Position numbers and translations under genes: made by a program. From assembly GCA_015485355.1 (NCBI GenBank), contig WFTQ01000029.1, forward strand, positions 1 to 46,884: a DNA stretch of 46,884 bases. Reading direction: 5' to 3'. Positions 9,867-44,466 of this stretch are shown here, piece after piece (the first letter of the stretch is position 1; each line of letters opens with the position of its first letter). Under the pieces are notes generated by a model. The model was not told where the DNA came from, did not search any database, and saw only the letters and a list, made by a program, of their open reading frames with translations. Source of the stretch: a bacterium. Its GTDB lineage: Bacteria; Calditrichota; Calditrichia; RBG-13-44-9; J042.

Positions 9867-12800
9867 ATGAAGCCTATCATCGACCCTGCCCAGTGGATCT
9901 TCAAAGATACCGAGCAAAGCACCTTCAAGTCCTGGTTTCTAAAAATTCGTAAATTGGCCGATCTGGTCCAATACCGGGGACGCCTGCCCGAAGCGCGGTT
10001 CATGGAATTTTACGAAAACGTCATTCACGCTCTGGAAGGGGCGGAGTCGATCCCCATTTTTCATTTTCTCCAAAAATACCTCCCCCGGCTGCTGGCCCAC
10101 GACCTCAATCAACACACCATATTGATCGGGATTTCCGATCTGCGGACCCTATTGCTGGAAACCATTATCGAACATCCCAATTTAAACAAAGAAAGCCGCA
10201 ATTATTGGATTTCTCAGGTCCTGGAGCTCTTCGACAACATTCAGGGGCACATTCAAAAACTGTGTGCCGATTATAAAGCGGAACAATCTCGCACCACCTC
10301 CAAAGGCCGCCGCTTGACCTTGCACGGAATCCCGGCCATCCTGTTCGAAATCGAAAAGGATCGCTTCCTGGGACCGGGAAATTATAGCCCCACCTTCTAC
10401 CAATGGTTCAGCCACGAAATTCCTATCGGGGATCCCCCACCCGACTGGAAAACCCTGATTCATCCAGACGATGTTCCGGTCTTTCAAAACACACTGGAAC
10501 ACTGTAAAAAAAATCTCATTCCCTTTTACGAGGCCAGGTATCGTTTGAAAACCTCCGGCAACCTGTGGCGGCCGGTGATCGAGCGGGGGAAAATCCACTA
10601 CAGCCAGAAGGGGGAAACCCTCTCTTTTTCGGGCATTATCATCGAACAGCGACCGGAACAAAACGAAAATGAACTCCTCAAAAACCTACTGAAGGCCCTG
10701 GAAGATACCCGCTCCCGGAAGAAAGACCTTTTCCTGGTCATCGACTCGACCCAGGAGGTTCTGTTCGTCTCCCGAACGGTCGGCACCTTCATTTCCCCAA
10801 AAGAGAGCCACCCAACCACTCTGGAAGCCATTTTCCCGTCTCCTCTTCCGGAACAGGTTCGCCAGAAGATTCAGACCCTGCGGCAACGGCAACAGGCTTC
10901 CGCGACCATCGGCTTCACCCTTTCGGGCAACCATTTTTCTTTAGAAATACGGCGATTGCCCGTGCAGAGCTCCCTCGACTGGTTTCTATTTTTCGTCCCT
11001 CAACGGCTGAGGGAACAGCAAAAAGTACCGGAAAATTTCCTGCAACGATTAAACCTGCTCTTCGAAAAGCGTCTGGAGATCTCGCAAGATTTCCGTGTGG
11101 ATGAGGTGCTGCGGCAAGCCATGCAGCTGGCCCGCATCCTGATTCCCGCAGCCCAGGCGGGCAGCTTACTGGTGAAAGAGGGCGGCGGTTTCCGATATCG
11201 CGAAGGATTCGGGTACGAAATGGACCGTCTGCGGAACATCGTTCTGTTTGAACCCACCACCGAACACACCGAGGTGCAGGCCCTGCAATTGCGAGAAATG
11301 CATAACGGTTCCCGGGTTATTCATGTGGAGCAAATCCGCCGAGAAGCGCAACGCATCCTCCCCAGGAAGCAATACGAACTGTTACGTCAATACGGTCGCC
11401 TGGACGAAATTTACCATACCCTCAGTGCTCTGATTCAGATTGATCATGAACCGTTTGCCATTTTGAATCTGGATGCTTTCCAGAAAGAAAACCCTTTTAC
11501 GGAATTCGATCAAAAGCTCATGGATTTGCTCAGTCAGCAAATTTCCGATACCCTCAAAATCATTCAATTGGTGCAACGGGTAAAGGAGAGTGAAACCAAT
11601 TATCGTCAACTATTTGAGCGCTCTCCCATTGCGATTTACATTCTCCAGGACAACCGCTTTAAACTGTTCAATCCCAATTTTTTGCGGTTGACCGGTTTGA
11701 GTGAGAAGGAGGCCCGAGAAATTGAAGTATGGGATCTGGTTCATCCCGACGATCGCCCCGCCCTGCAAAAGCGCGCCATGGCCCGATTGCGGGGAGAAAA
11801 ACCGCTTTCGGAATACGAATTCCGTCTGATCAATAAGAACGGCGAGGTCCTTAACTGTTTAGGATCGTTCACTCGGGTAACATTTAACGGAAAACCGGCC
11901 ATCTTAGGCGAAATCATGAACATCACCCGGTTGCGGATGCTGGAAAGGCAGCTGCTGCAGGTGCAGAAGATGGAAACCGTAGGCACCCTCACGGCGGGCA
12001 TTGCCCACGACTTCAACAACATTTTAGGGGCCATATTGCCCAGCGCCCAGCTCATCCAGGACGATCCTCAGAATCCCGCCAATGCCTCCCGGGCACGCAT
12101 CATTGTGGAAATGGCCCAGCGCGCTTCCCAATTAACCCATCAGTTGCTGTCCTTCGCCCGGGCCGGCGAGTTCCATAAACAGGTGATCAACTTCAATGAA
12201 CTTATTCGAAACAGTCAACAGATTTTGGAAAAGCTGTTGCCCAGGCGGATTCAATTGAAACTGGAACTGGACGACACCACCCCGCCGGTGGAAGGCGATG
12301 CGAACCAGATCATTCAGGTCATCATCAATATGGTCATCAACGCTCGGGACGCCATTGAGGCCGCGGGACAGATCGTCATTCAAACATATCCCAGATCGGC
12401 GCGGGTCACCCGATTGCTCACCGTGGGCACTCTGCCGCCCGGTAAATATGCCGTCGTTTCCATTAAAGATAATGGATGCGGTATTCCCGATAATCTGCGT
12501 GACAAGATTTTCGACCCGTTCTTTACCACTAAACCGGTGGGCAAGGGCACCGGCCTGGGCCTGAGCACCGTTTACGGCATCGTCAAGCGCCACAAGGGCT
12601 GCATCAACCTGCGCACTCGTGTGGGCAAAGGAACCACATTCGAAATTTTCATTCCAGCTACCACCAAACGGGAAGACCGCCGACTGACCAAGCGCACGCC
12701 CAGGACCCGGGGCATCGAGCCAGGTCTGACCACCTTAATCATCGACGACGAAGACCATCTGCGGGAAATTTTGGGATTGATGCTGACCGAATTGGGGTTT

Positions 12801-13100
12801 CGGGTACTCAGTGCGGAGACCGGAAAGAAGGGAATCAAAATCTTTCGGGAACGCAAGGACGCCATCGACCTCATCATCCTGGACCACGTCATGCCCGAGT
12901 TAAACGGGAAGCAAACCCTGGAGGTATTGCGCCAAATCAAACCCGATGTTAAGGTGTTGCTGGCTACCGGGTATGGCGATCATAAATCACTAACGGATTT
13001 GTACCGTATGGGGATCGATGGTTTTCTAACCAAGCCGTTTACGTTCGATCAGCTGAAAGAAAAGATTCGAGAAGTGATGAGCGGCACGCTGAAAACGTAG
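9867..13100 (+). CDS. Hybrid sensor histidine kinase (PAS-PAS-GAF-PAS-HisKA-HATPase-REC)
   Basis: A 1077-residue cytoplasmic signalling protein with no membrane helix. Residues 1-125 form an uncharacterised helical domain. A PAS3-like domain (about 140-270) contains [10 protein letters not shown] weaker PAS-like region (285-380), a GAF domain (390-570) and another PAS domain (576-695) follow. The phospho-acceptor is in [10 protein letters not shown] (H714). The ATPase has an N box near 820 ([11 protein letters not shown]) and G boxes DNGCGIP and GKGTGLGLS. The C-terminal receiver carries [11 protein letters not shown] with D1006 and the conserved TKPF. Sensing several signals and passing phosphate internally is typical of this architecture; the final output partner is not encoded next to it. 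The ATG at 9867 lacks a strong ribosome-binding site. Confidence 0.93.
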
Positions 13101-37454: not shown

Positions 37455-38519
37455 ATGACCGGACTGACTTCATCACAGCTGGACGATTTCCTGAATTTTA
37501 TTGATTTTTTCTTGATCCAAATTTCGGCGCAGGGGAATCTTTTATCCATACGCCCCGCCCATAAAACCTTTCTCCAATGGCGCAAGGAAAACTGGAAGCA
37601 ATTCAATTTTCGGGACCATTTTTTGACCCCCAACGACCTGACCATGGAGCTGTTTTTATCCTTTTTCGAGATCAAGGATTACAACAGCAACCACTTTTTA
37701 TGGAAAGGCCAGGATGGCAAAGTCTCCCCGCCGTTACCGACCTTTATGCGACTGGCCCGAAACCGGGAGGGACAACGGTTCTTTCTTATGTTTGTCAAAG
37801 ATCCTGAAGAGGCTGTCCGGGTCAGCATTCCGGCGACGGATAAGAAATTTCTTTTTCAGGCGCGAGGTTTTCCGGGATTGATTCACAACATCAACGGGCC
37901 GCTAGGCACCATTACCGGACGCATTGAGCTGATGCAATATCAGTATTCCGAAATCCAGGAATTCGATGAGATCATCCGTGTGGGCTACCGACTTCAAGGT
38001 ATTCTGGAGAATGTTTCCTTCAAGGTGATCAACGAAAAACACTTGAATCGTTCAAAAATCAATTTCAACCGGTTTTTAAGAGAAGAAATCACCTTCCTGA
38101 ACTGCGATTTATTTTTCAAACATCAAGTGGAAAAAGTCAACGATTTTTCTTCCAGCATACCCGAATTTGATAGTTCCTATGCCAAATTGAGCGGCATTTT
38201 TTCGGAATGTTACTATTTCTTCCGCCATTATGTGAATGAACGTAAAGAATACGTCTTTTTAGTCAAATCGTTCATGAACGGCTCCCACATTGGCTTTTCC
38301 ATCGATTTTAGCGGAGAATTCGAGCCGCCCCGGGGCTGCATGGCGCCCCTTCCTTTGTATCTGGAAGGCGATTTCCTGGAAATGGCGCGCACCCGAATTC
38401 CGGGCTTGGACACGCGTTTTCTATCCTTGTGTATGGAAGAAACCCGGGGCATTTTAAAAATGTCCTGCCGGCAGGACGGCATGAAGCTGCGTTATGAATT
38501 CCCGATACCCTTACCCTGA
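37455..38519 (+). CDS. Degenerate histidine-kinase-like protein (PAS-like, HisKA-like)
   Basis: A 354-residue soluble protein. Residues 8-115 look like a PAS fold. At 138-160 the stretch GLIHNINGPLGTITGRIELM resembles the H box of histidine kinases, with H144 in the phospho-acceptor place. The C-terminal 150 residues should be the ATPase, but I find none of the glycine-rich ATP motifs (no DxGxG, no GxGxGL). It therefore looks like a pseudokinase that could dimerise with or dock to a response regulator rather than phosphorylate one. GGAA lies four bases before the ATG. It is followed by uvrC in the same direction; the pairing may be accidental. Confidence 0.75.
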   Translation: MTGLTSSQLDDFLNFIDFFLIQISAQGNLLSIRPAHKTFLQWRKENWKQFNFRDHFLTPNDLTMELFLSFFEIKDYNSNHFLWKGQDGKVSPPLPTFMRLARNREGQRFFLMFVKDPEEAVRVSIPATDKKFLFQARGFPGLIHNINGPLGTITGRIELMQYQYSEIQEFDEIIRVGYRLQGILENVSFKVINEKHLNRSKINFNRFLREEITFLNCDLFFKHQVEKVNDFSSSIPEFDSSYAKLSGIFSECYYFFRHYVNERKEYVFLVKSFMNGSHIGFSIDFSGEFEPPRGCMAPLPLYLEGDFLEMARTRIPGLDTRFLSLCMEETRGILKMSCRQDGMKLRYEFPIPLP

Positions 38520-40579: not shown

Positions 40580-42805
40580 ATGCAAGAACCTCGGGTAACC
40601 CCGGCGCTGGCCCTGGAGCATGGCCTGAGCGAAGAGGAATACCAGAAAATCCTCGACATTTTAGGGCGCACCCCGACATTCACCGAATTGGGTATTTTCT
40701 CTGTAATGTGGAGTGAGCACTGTTCTTACAAGAATTCCATTGCCGAAATTAAAACATTGCCTCGGACCGGTCCGCGGCTTCTGGTCGGGGCGGGGGAGGA
40801 AAACGCCGGCCTGGTGGACATTGGCGATGGTCTGGCGGTCTGTTTTAAAATCGAAAGCCACAATCACCCTTCGGCCGTTGAACCGTATCAGGGAGCCGCC
40901 ACGGGGGTGGGAGGCATTATGCGGGATGTCTTTTCGATGGGGGCGCGTCCGGTGGCCGCCCTCAACTCCCTGCGATTCGGCCCCCTGGATCAGGCGCGCA
41001 ATCGCTATCTGCTGGACGGCGTGGTTCGAGGCATTGCCGATTACGGGAACTGCCTGGGAGTACCCACCATTGCCGGAGAAATCTATTTCGAAGACTGCTA
41101 TACCCATAATCCTCTGGTAAATGCCATGACGGTGGGTATTGTGCGCCACGATCAAACCGCCACGGCCGTGGCCCGAGGGGCCGGTAATCCGGTCTTCCTG
41201 ATCGGTTCCCGAACGGGACGAGATGGCATCCACGGGGCCACATTCGCCTCCGAAGAACTCACCGAAACCTCCGAAGAAAGGCGTCCCAATGTGCAGGTGG
41301 GCGATCCTTTTACCGAAAAACTGTTGTTGGAAGCCACCCTGGAAATGATCCGGAAGCGATTGCTGGTCGGCATTCAGGACATGGGTGCGGCCGGGATCAC
41401 CTGTTCCACCACGGAAATGAGCGCCAAGGGCAACGCCGGCATGGAGATTGACCTGGACAAAGTGCCTTTACGGGAGCCGGGCATGACGGCCTACGAAATC
41501 ATGCTTTCCGAATCGCAAGAGCGCATGCTGGCGGTGGTGAAAAAAGGCCGGGAAGAAGCGGTGCGCCGCATCTGCCGGAAGTGGGATTTGATTTGCGAAC
41601 AGATCGGCGAAGTCATCGATGAACCGATATTGCGGGTATACCACCAGGGAAAAACCGTGGCGGAAGTGCCGCCGTATTCGTGCGTATTAGGAGGCGGTGC
41701 GCCGGTATACCATCGGGAAGCTCGGCGACCCGCCTACCTGGACGAAGTGCAGTCCTTCGACTTCGAGCGACTCCCCCCGGTGGCCGACCTGGAAGCGGCT
41801 TTTCGGAAAGTCTTTTCCTCTCCCAACATCGTCTCCCGCCGCTGGGTCTACCAGCAGTACGATCACATGGTCCAAACCAGTACGGTGGTGCATCCCGGGG
41901 GCGACGCCGCGGTAATCCGCATCCGTGGCACCCGCAAGGGCATCGCCATGAAAACCGATGGAAACGGTCGTTATGTATATTTAAATCCCCGACGGGGGGG
42001 ACAAATTGCGGTGGCCGAAGCGGCCCGCAACGTGGTGTGCACCGGGGCCCTGCCCCTGGCCATAACCAACTGCCTGAACTTTGGTAATCCCTATAAACCG
42101 GAAATGTTTTACCTGTTCAAAGAGGCGGTGGCCGGAATCGGCGATGCCTGCCGGGTTCTGGAAACACCCGTTACCGGCGGCAACGTGAGTTTCTATAACG
42201 AAGGCCCCGAGGGCGCCGTCTATCCCACGCCCGTCATCGGAATGATAGGGTTAATCGAAGACATTGCTCAGGTAACGCCTGCCGCTTTCCAATCGGAAGG
42301 GGACGAGATTTACCTGATCGGCCGGACCGCGCCGGAAATTGGAGGCAGCGAGTTTTTAAAAGTCGTGTACCAAAAGATCACGGGGGACATTCCAGCCCTG
42401 GATCTCCGAAGGGAGAAGGCGACCCAACAGGCTGTTCTGGGGGCCATCCGCCGGGGATGGGTGCGTTCGGCCCACGACATCTCCGACGGCGGCTTGCTGG
42501 TGGCTCTGGCGGAGTGTTGCATCTTAAACCCGGAGCGGTCCCTGGGCGCCCACATTCACTGGGTTCCTCCAAAAGAGCGCCCGGAATGGTGGCTCTTCAG
42601 CGAAAGCCAATCTCGCTTCCTCCTGAGCGTCCCTCCCGACCGCCGGCGACAACTGGAAGAGTGGTTCCGCAACCAACATATTCCCATCCAACGGCTGGGT
42701 ACGGTGGGCGGATCGGAATTGCGCCTGGCGTCGATCTTGGCCCTACCCCTGAAGGAACTCCAGGAAATGTATTACCAAACGCTTCCCCGGATAATGGAAT
42801 GGTAG
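40580..42805 (+). CDS. purL: Phosphoribosylformylglycinamidine synthase subunit PurL
   Basis: A 741-residue PurL of the small (multi-subunit) type. It makes formylglycinamidine ribonucleotide with ATP and ammonia in purine synthesis, together with PurQ and PurS. Visible motifs include MWSEHCSYK (43-51), [28 protein letters not shown] and [17 protein letters not shown] eight bases before the ATG at 40580 fixes the start. PurQ and PurS are not adjacent, so the pathway genes are scattered. It lies 65 bases after uvrC on the same strand and may share its transcript. Confidence 0.96.
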
Positions 42806-42827
42806 CCTCAGGGCCGAGGCGCTTTTT
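42805..42827 (+). terminator. Probable terminator after purL
   Basis: GCCTC (42805-42809) pairs with GAGGC (42816-42820), followed by GC and five T. The stem is short. Confidence 0.45.
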
Positions 42828-42930
42828 CGGAAAAACTCGAATTTCCTGATTCAGTTCTTCGGGGAGCCGCCGATAATCGATAATCAGGTTTAAGTCTTTT
42901 AAAATTTGAGGGTTATTTTAGACAAAAGGC

Positions 42931-42958
42931 TTGACTTTCTTTGCATTTCATATATATT
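42931..42958 (+). promoter_or_regulatory. Promoter of the receiver-domain gene
   Basis: TTGACT (42931-42936), a 16-base spacer and TATATT (42953-42958), with a leader of about 30 bases. Confidence 0.7.
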
Positions 42959-42993: not shown

Positions 42994-43470
42994 ATGAAAA
43001 AACTGGGTAACGTTATGGTGGTCGACGACGAAGAGAATATCCGGGAAGTGCTGTCCAATTACCTGACCAATCTGGGATATTTTGTGGTTACCGCCAAGGA
43101 CGGGACCGATGCTCTGGATAAGTTTCGTTCCCGGAGTTTCGATTTGATCATCTCAGACCTGCTCATGCCCAACATCGACGGCCTGGAACTCCTGAAACGC
43201 ATTCGAGAACAAGATAAGGACGTTATTTTCCTGATGATCACCGGATACCCTTCCATCGAAACCGCCGTGGAGGCCATCAAACAAGGCGCCTACGATTACA
43301 TCACCAAGCCCTTCCATATGGAAGACGTGAAGATTCGGATCGAACGAGCCTTTGAAAAAAAGAATCTCAAGGAACGCCTGAGCACCGTACAGGGTTTTGT
43401 GTGGGCACTCCTGTTCTCCATCCCCATCTGGCTGATTCTGGGCATCATTCTGGCCAAACTACTCAAATAA
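42994..43470 (+). CDS. Response-regulator receiver domain with a C-terminal membrane anchor
   Basis: A 158-residue protein. The receiver domain (about 5-122) has the acidic pair D11/D12, phospho-acceptor D55 in LIISDLLMP, T83 in MITG and K105 in TKPF, so all phosphorylation residues are intact. Instead of a DNA-binding output domain, a short basic linker leads to a hydrophobic segment (about 134-155) followed by AKLLK. That is a tail-anchored receiver, with the signalling domain in the cytoplasm. GAGGAGG seven bases before the ATG and a clear promoter make the gene secure. The cognate kinase is not next to it. Confidence 0.92.
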   Translation: MKKLGNVMVVDDEENIREVLSNYLTNLGYFVVTAKDGTDALDKFRSRSFDLIISDLLMPNIDGLELLKRIREQDKDVIFLMITGYPSIETAVEAIKQGAYDYITKPFHMEDVKIRIERAFEKKNLKERLSTVQGFVWALLFSIPIWLILGIILAKLLK

Positions 43471-43882: not shown

Positions 43883-44128
43883 TCATTTCAGCAACCACAC
43901 TATTCCCAGAATAATCAGTATCAAGGGAACAACCGGAATGATCACCAGGCCCAGTATGGGTAAGGCGACCCCCGCGAGGATGAATAAGGTCAATCCAAAC
44001 GCAAACAGGCCGATCAGAATCTTCAGCGGCAAAACCAACACGAATACCCCTGCTTTGACTAACCAGACCATGAGTTTGGTTACGCCCACCACCAAAGCCA
44101 GCACGATGAAAAGGATTAAAAATTCCAT
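43883..44128 (-). CDS. Small hydrophobic membrane protein
   Basis: An 81-residue protein that is almost entirely hydrophobic (Leu/Ile/Val-rich) with two to three membrane helices. Lys residues near positions 18, 25 and 36 mark the loops, and the protein ends WLLK. GAGG lies upstream of a GTG (44131) and the ATG (44128). No family motif is recognisable. The gene stands alone. Confidence 0.65.
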   Translation of the reverse strand: MEFLILFIVLALVVGVTKLMVWLVKAGVFVLVLPLKILIGLFAFGLTLFILAGVALPILGLVIIPVVPLILIILGIVWLLK

Positions 44129-44466
44129 CACGGTGGACCTCTTGATTGATCTTCTCTGTTCTACGGCGATTCACACCGTGGGTTTCGTCGCTTGCACGAG
44201 CTGCTGCACCTGCGGAGTGTATCGCATCGTTGACCGGATCCCCGGTAACCCCATGGCGACCACAACGAAGGAAGCCCCCCAACGGGTTTGGTCGGGCAAA
44301 CGGGGTTAAACCCGTTGACGGGAGCTCCCATGCGGTTTTTACCGCATTCCCTTCCGGCCCATTCGTTTGAAGCCCGTCCCTTTCCCCCCTGCTCAGTCGC
44401 TCGGCTCGGGGGCTTCAGAGGACCATCGCCTTCTTTCCTCATAAAAACACCGCACCATGAAGAGGG
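44129..44466. other. Spacer with three consecutive palindromes
   Basis: About 340 bases without a supported gene; a minus-strand frame (44161-44442) is Pro/Gly/Arg-rich and unconvincing. The notable content is three palindromic elements in a row at 44299-44347. Confidence 0.45.
44299..44347. repeat. Three adjacent palindromes or hairpins
   Basis: AACGGG/CCCGTT (44299-44304 and 44311-44316, six-base loop), GGGAGCTCCC (44320-44329, no loop) and ATGCGG/CCGCAT (44330-44335 and 44342-44347, T-rich six-base loop) follow each other within 49 bases. They lie upstream of the small membrane protein gene and downstream of the SpoIIM-like gene, so they could end the latter's transcript or structure the former's leader. 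Confidence 0.7.

Follow-up and report, generated by a model that had tools for sequence, protein, structure and literature searches.

A stand-alone receiver domain with a conserved, predicted C-terminal membrane helix in three bacterial phyla: a possible response regulator acting at the membrane

What can a response regulator act upon when the place of its output domain is taken by one membrane helix? The usual outputs of two-component systems are DNA binding, an enzyme, or a soluble protein contact. We examined this question for a gene within a 46,884-nucleotide stretch of Calditrichota DNA (the whole stretch analysed, hereafter the window). The gene lies at 42994..43470 on the + strand, starts with ATG, and encodes a 158-aa protein composed of a stand-alone receiver and a predicted C-terminal membrane helix (REC-TM). 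The original prediction, made from the letters of the window, proposed that phosphorylation of this protein would act at the membrane rather than on DNA.

The receiver domain (residues 7–116; 43012..43341, + strand) was delimited by Pfam, by alignment and by PDB fold matches; its match to Pfam Response_reg (PF00072) had an E value of 9.7e-32 and a score of 109.9 bits. The phosphorylation residues that had been claimed to be complete were indeed all there: the acidic pair D11/D12, the acceptor D55, T83 and K105. In a 35-row alignment of 25 Calditrichota, 4 Nitrospirota and 6 Desulfobacterota members (where some start codons were hand-chosen and the L166 and L168 rows start late), D11, D12, D55 and K105 were invariant in 35/35 rows, position 83 was T or S in all 35, and P106 was likewise among the invariant columns. 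REC-TM thus joins the profile match to the acidic pair, phospho-Asp, Thr/Ser and Lys by which a receiver domain is recognised. It departs from the CheY type of single-domain regulator in that all 35 aligned members have a conserved hydrophobic tail, and from the NtrC family (receiver plus AAA+ plus DNA-binding domain) in that PF00072 was matched alone and the protein ends at residue 158. In the search against NCBIfam, the best 25 of 100 matched models all fell below cut-off and no Prs model was among those 25; PrsR and PrsK are regulators of XrtA/PEP-CTERM polysaccharide systems. XrtA-associated models were matched only by a neighbour of REC-TM and by a distant cluster. A consensus scan of the DNA ahead of the gene showed a terminator-like hairpin plus tail at the end of purL (42805..42830, + strand, with the hairpin at 42805-42820) and a sigma-70-like promoter, TTGACT-16-TATATT (42931..42958, + strand), which suggests that REC-TM is transcribed separately from purL; these are consensus matches only, and neither the three promoter-like sites in the region (shuffle mean 1.0) nor the three terminator-like sites (shuffle mean 1.4) are by themselves evidence of function.

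Is the tail a membrane segment? Residues 134–154 (GFVWALLFSIPIWLILGIILA; 43393..43455, + strand) were marked by hydropathy and conservation and hold the motif G..WAL..SIP.WL.LGI. The best 19-residue window, 135–153, had a Kyte-Doolittle mean of 2.55, zero charged residues and a Wimley-White octanol sum of -17.7, and the protein ends five residues past this hydrophobic stretch; by hydropathy, REC-TM therefore has the layout of a tail-anchored protein, with a soluble N-terminal domain and one hydrophobic helix at the extreme C-terminus. Over the 35 aligned members the Kyte-Doolittle value of the tail ranged from 2.02 to 2.89. In the window genome, nine further short frames resembling receivers (those that passed the filter among 14 regions taken) reached a maximum of 1.59, so the tail is not generic to receivers. 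The best window inside the receiver of REC-TM itself was 1.37, and that inside the receiver of the relative L148 was 1.78. By hydropathy the tail is thus strongly predicted to be membrane-embedded, against the possibility raised at the outset of a prediction to the contrary.

A different origin for a short receiver of this kind would be decay: an NtrC-type regulator whose output was lost through a frameshift. The closest PDB folds, the receivers of NtrC1 and NtrX, are consistent with such an ancestry, but the relatives share the same end. No aligned member (0/35) continues into a longer output domain, as had been allowed for when the gene was first noted; a stop codon follows directly after 33 of the 35 rows, L012 has one extra residue and then a stop, and the L166 row was cut one codon late and so contains its own stop. 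With the common end and the conserved tail, we rule out a decayed or frameshifted regulator and give that reading next to no probability. The claim that a single C-terminal membrane helix stands in place of the output domain is upheld by hydropathy, by PF00072 being the only domain match and by conservation across three phyla.

The tail proved to be the better conserved part of the protein. The mean majority-residue fraction over the 35 aligned members was 0.81 for the tail (134–154) vs 0.69 for the receiver (6–124), and tail identity exceeded receiver identity in 10/10 comparisons within and between four groups; for example, identity was 78% in the tail vs 55% in the receiver between two Calditrichota groups, and 67% vs 43% between families f4–f6 and the Desulfobacterota. 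When compared with the congener, the tail codons showed 14 synonymous and 0 non-synonymous changes. Two further comparisons tell against the reading we favour below: the receiver codons likewise had few changes of the second kind relative to the congener (55 synonymous, 4 non-synonymous), and compared with L010 and L015, the tail codons showed 10 synonymous and 8 non-synonymous changes. By sequence, the tail is single, conserved and under purifying selection.

These results bear on the simplest reading of the helix, that it is a plain anchor which merely concentrates a CheY-like receiver at the membrane. The tail has the length of an anchor and is one hydrophobic helix; furthermore, conservation was not significantly concentrated on one helical face (shuffle p 0.26), so that any surface for a dimer or a partner would be conjectural. 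A plain anchor is nevertheless quite unlikely in our judgment, given that conservation is higher in the tail than in the receiver and that G134, P144, W146, L149 and G150 are invariant in the 35-row alignment across three phyla. A mere anchor need not be so conserved, and the tail would instead seem to be a specific conserved motif. No Pfam model matched it above cut-off, and its matches among PDB chains had E values of 0.06 at best.

How might the receiver and the tail be joined? An AlphaFold2 model of the REC-TM monomer, built on the alignment, was a canonical receiver (mean pLDDT 86.4) in which residues 109–157 (43318..43464, + strand) formed a single predicted helix, with receiver alpha-5 continuing into the membrane segment. 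Alpha-5 is therefore predicted to run straight into the membrane helix as one continuous helix, with lower model confidence at the receiver/tail joint (pLDDT 74 over residues 121–130). In NtrC-family receivers, the alpha4-beta5-alpha5 face together with the linker helix is the signalling route.

Relatives with the same architecture were sought, as had been proposed. The 12 best named relatives (L031–L042) were 80–97% identical to REC-TM, and ten of these were MAGs under the label Calditrichota, Calditrichaeota, Calditrichia or Caldithrix, the other two being called simply 'bacterium'; the window is assigned to the Calditrichota on this basis, and the phylum names used for other genomes are those of their record titles. 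A full-protein profile (E <= 1e-40) detected REC-TM in 36/40 Calditrichota genomes, including 21/23 of good quality, and the same 36 were strongly matched by a tail-only profile. There was one match per genome, except in G033, where two pieces lay on two contigs. The four genomes lacking REC-TM were G013 (62% complete), G038 (73%), G020 (96%) and G028 (94%). A scan of 41 genomes behind other receiver matches gave five matches at E <= 0.1: the tail was strong in two (one Nitrospirales genome, one Desulfatibia genome), and the other three (E 0.01–0.08) were regarded as chance. Further samples, scanned with the tail profile at E <= 1e-5, showed the tail in 4/198 genomes around the Nitrospirales genome and in 5/297 around the Desulfatibia genome, counts that include the prompting genomes G080 and G067, whose tails are also rows of the tail profile; the weakest match was G333 (E 1.9e-6). 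At the same threshold the tail was found in 0/247 genomes of an Acidobacteria-centred sample and 0/398 of a Betaproteobacteria-centred sample, neither of which contained a positive control, so that the zeros show little by themselves; they agree with the view that this form is uncommon as far as this tail outside the Calditrichota is concerned. Among viral relatives (28 loci), none aligned past query residue 140. The architecture is thus conserved across three phyla, and near-universal and single-copy among the Calditrichota genomes searched.

What would a switch of this kind act upon? The genes beside REC-TM differ between families. In the window family its neighbours are uvrC, purL and tRNA-Arg, with no polysaccharide gene among them; beyond the tRNA-Arg, an 82-aa frame (43883-44131, - strand) is nearly all hydrophobic and had no Pfam match at the threshold used. 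In the sister families f4–f6, REC-TM stands within an operon-like row of same-strand genes. A tblastn comparison placed a polysaccharide deacetylase directly upstream of REC-TM in 12/18 sister-family loci and an AraC-type gene upstream in 15/18; where more than 5.2 kb of upstream DNA was present, PorV/PorQ-like, radical-SAM-like and cadherin-repeat-like genes occurred in 10/10 loci and a geranylgeranyl-reductase-like gene in 8/10. The labels of these neighbours represent tblastn similarity to the genes of locus L111, with the models scored on single representatives: TIGR03006 (deacetylase), HTH_18 (AraC-type) and NF033709 on L111 genes, and PorV/PorQ on L111 and L037. The 18 loci omit G019, G029 and G033, whose matches were without fetched context, and the G016 locus, with just 212 bases upstream, is too short to be counted. 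A PorV/PorQ-like gene was also directly upstream of REC-TM in 3/5 loci viewed from family f2, and in family f3 REC-TM borders a row LapA-LapB-x-Crp-kinase-MqnA-PorV (the names LapA and Crp were given by eye, those of the kinase, LapB-type and menaquinone-biosynthesis genes by domain matches).

The AraC-type neighbour raises an alternative for the sister families, in which REC-TM would hold or release the upstream-encoded regulator at the membrane and so sequester a transcription factor. The gene's presence in most of those loci (HTH_18, as scored on L111) favours this, but its cluster is not beside REC-TM in loci of the window's order, nor was it seen in the Nitrospirota and Desulfobacterota loci, which were checked by eye only, and we hold sequestration to be decidedly improbable.

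In the other two phyla the neighbours were different again. FtsK and LolA genes were just upstream of REC-TM in 4/4 Nitrospirota loci (domain models scored on L147 only), i.e., envelope and cell-division genes, not polysaccharide genes. Sugar transferases adjoined REC-TM in 2/6 Desulfobacterota loci. Directly upstream in L165 is a transferase of exopolysaccharide type (Bac_transf, scoring below the NCBIfam cut-offs); in L169 the gene upstream of REC-TM encodes a Glycos_transf_4 (WecA-like) transferase, and downstream there is one for a Wzy_C protein. A directly adjacent polysaccharide gene was not identified in the other 4/6; these include L148 and L166, where none was seen by eye, L167, in which a gene resembling UDP-sugar dehydrogenase was seen by eye at a distance of a few kb upstream, and L168, viewed for REC-TM itself only. 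No single neighbour was common to all REC-TM lineages. In the window genome the deacetylase is encoded away from REC-TM, on contig C16, within a surface-polysaccharide cluster (8725-19438 of L198) that also includes a sugar transferase, Poly_export and a FemAB protein matching TIGR03019; the deacetylase there, a TIGR03006 match, is of the XrtA-associated type. The deacetylase was found in 0/4 Calditrichota genomes without REC-TM (E <= 1e-20; two of these are only 62% and 73% complete) and in 2/3 tested genomes with REC-TM, numbers too small to serve as proof. From the conserved neighbours outside the window family, we infer a connection to the envelope or to surface polysaccharide.

A partner kinase, which had been suggested as a thing to look for, did not emerge from the neighbourhoods: across the loci viewed, no histidine kinase consistently adjoined REC-TM. 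In family f3 a PAS-HisKA kinase is near REC-TM, and it has relatives in 39/40 Calditrichota genomes (E <= 1e-60). The row x, Crp/Fnr and PAS histidine kinase was seen in L184–L195, L125, L128 and L129, often together with LapA, LapB and a menaquinone-biosynthesis-like gene. This x-Crp-kinase core stands without REC-TM in 12 other loci, 10 of them from genomes that have REC-TM elsewhere; LapA and LapB genes accompany it in fewer of the 12, and in L191 the contig carries, apart from the kinase, just a portion of Crp. In L189, L190 and L195 the kinase block is adjoined by a related frame of 328–336 aa that bears a receiver, and L125 and L129 have frames of 307–308 aa a short way from it; a regulator other than REC-TM is therefore quite conceivable for this kinase. 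Because the block persists in loci that lack REC-TM and other genes with receivers lie near it, we rejected it as the partner.

The kinase question is also the ground of the strongest rival to a reading of the helix as output. REC-TM could be held at the membrane to serve as a phosphate sink, a relay step or a tuner, its helix pairing with the membrane helices of one histidine kinase, and its receiver draining, relaying or inhibiting kinase phosphorylation in a Spo0F- or FixT-like manner at the membrane. The protein has no output domain and an intact phospho-site, single-domain receivers are known to act by relay or kinase inhibition (PMC12471899), and the widespread PAS-HisKA kinase is near REC-TM in f3. 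That kinase, however, is tied to REC-TM in f3 only, its block occurring without REC-TM in the 12 loci described and with the other receiver-bearing frames near it, and no other kinase is consistently adjacent; we consider a sink or tuner rather unlikely.

Two further frames within the window were noted. A 354-aa protein (37455-38519, + strand) has an H-box-like stretch, IHNINGPLGTITGRIEL (by eye), and is possibly a degenerate histidine kinase; it had no Pfam or NCBIfam match. Its relatives occur in 34/40 Calditrichota genomes, including all four without REC-TM; in the sister families only its core is found, mostly within frames of ~520 aa. It is near REC-TM only in the window genome and the congener, and elsewhere the two are mostly on different contigs. 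As a partner kinase it is unsupported, being kept in genomes without REC-TM and near REC-TM in two genomes only. The second, a 1077-aa frame (9867-13100, + strand), is hybrid-histidine-kinase-like by eye and has a C-terminal receiver that matches REC-TM at 35% identity.

How does REC-TM compare with known systems? The NtrC/AtoC/NtrX receivers are its nearest family in receiver sequence and fold, and in them, too, alpha-5 continues into a linker helix; REC-TM is without the AAA+ and DNA-binding domains, and the membrane helix replaces the linker. CheY, Spo0F and DivK are single-domain response regulators. Such regulators, described as a group (PMC12471899), are like REC-TM in having one receiver, an intact phospho-site and no enzymatic or DNA-binding output; they are receiver only, whereas REC-TM adds a conserved membrane helix that is predicted to be fused to alpha-5. 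Stand-alone receivers are described as common in archaea, and REC-BcsA fusions are described in Methanobacteriaceae (PMC5847659). The theme shared with the latter is a receiver physically tied to a polysaccharide-synthase-like enzyme; REC-BcsA fuses a glycosyltransferase, whereas REC-TM fuses a bare helix and its polysaccharide link comes from gene neighbourhood only. The same source calls the rare archaeal MetOD3 (MetOD3-REC-MetOD2, Methanoregula; 4 proteins listed) membrane-anchored (PMC5847659). MetOD3 is thus, like REC-TM, a receiver-bearing protein with a membrane-anchored domain; it is archaeal and has a different domain order, the likeness being one of description and not of tail comparison. 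In the parts of the literature covered by our search, this archaeal protein was the only membrane-anchored response regulator, and no bacterial one of the REC-TM kind appeared, a mention in reviews of output domains being possible.

We favour the explanation, at a probability just short of even, that REC-TM is a phospho-switch in which the membrane helix serves as output and a partner in the envelope is the target. Support for the architecture is good, and the partner and process are what the conserved tail and the gene neighbourhoods lead us to infer. The receiver would lie in the cytoplasm with the C-terminal helix in the inner membrane, as predicted, and a histidine kinase encoded elsewhere would phosphorylate D55. 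This would change the alpha4-beta5-alpha5 face and may thereby alter the pairing or tilt of the alpha-5/membrane helix, whose fixed motif G..WAL..SIP.WL.LGI would bind one specific membrane partner, and phosphorylation could thereby recruit, release or gate that partner, most probably a component of the machinery in the inner membrane by which surface polysaccharide or the envelope is made. The conserved tail and the presence of REC-TM in most sampled members of the phylum suggest that the switch acts on a membrane target, not on DNA. Action at the membrane through a partner, as first proposed, would fit the conservation of the tail.

More tentatively, REC-TM may represent a class of membrane-integral response regulator, a core gene of the phylum, in which one conserved transmembrane helix is the output and an alpha-5 relay exerts direct control over the assembly of surface polysaccharide or envelope, with neither DNA binding nor a second messenger in between. 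Because this small family occurs in single copy and almost throughout one phylum, with a short exact motif to mutate, the question is directly testable. If this reading is true, phospho-signals would pass by way of REC-TM directly into the membrane, a route not met in those parts of the literature that were searched; and if the polysaccharide link is true, it would offer an entry to surface control in the little-studied Calditrichota.
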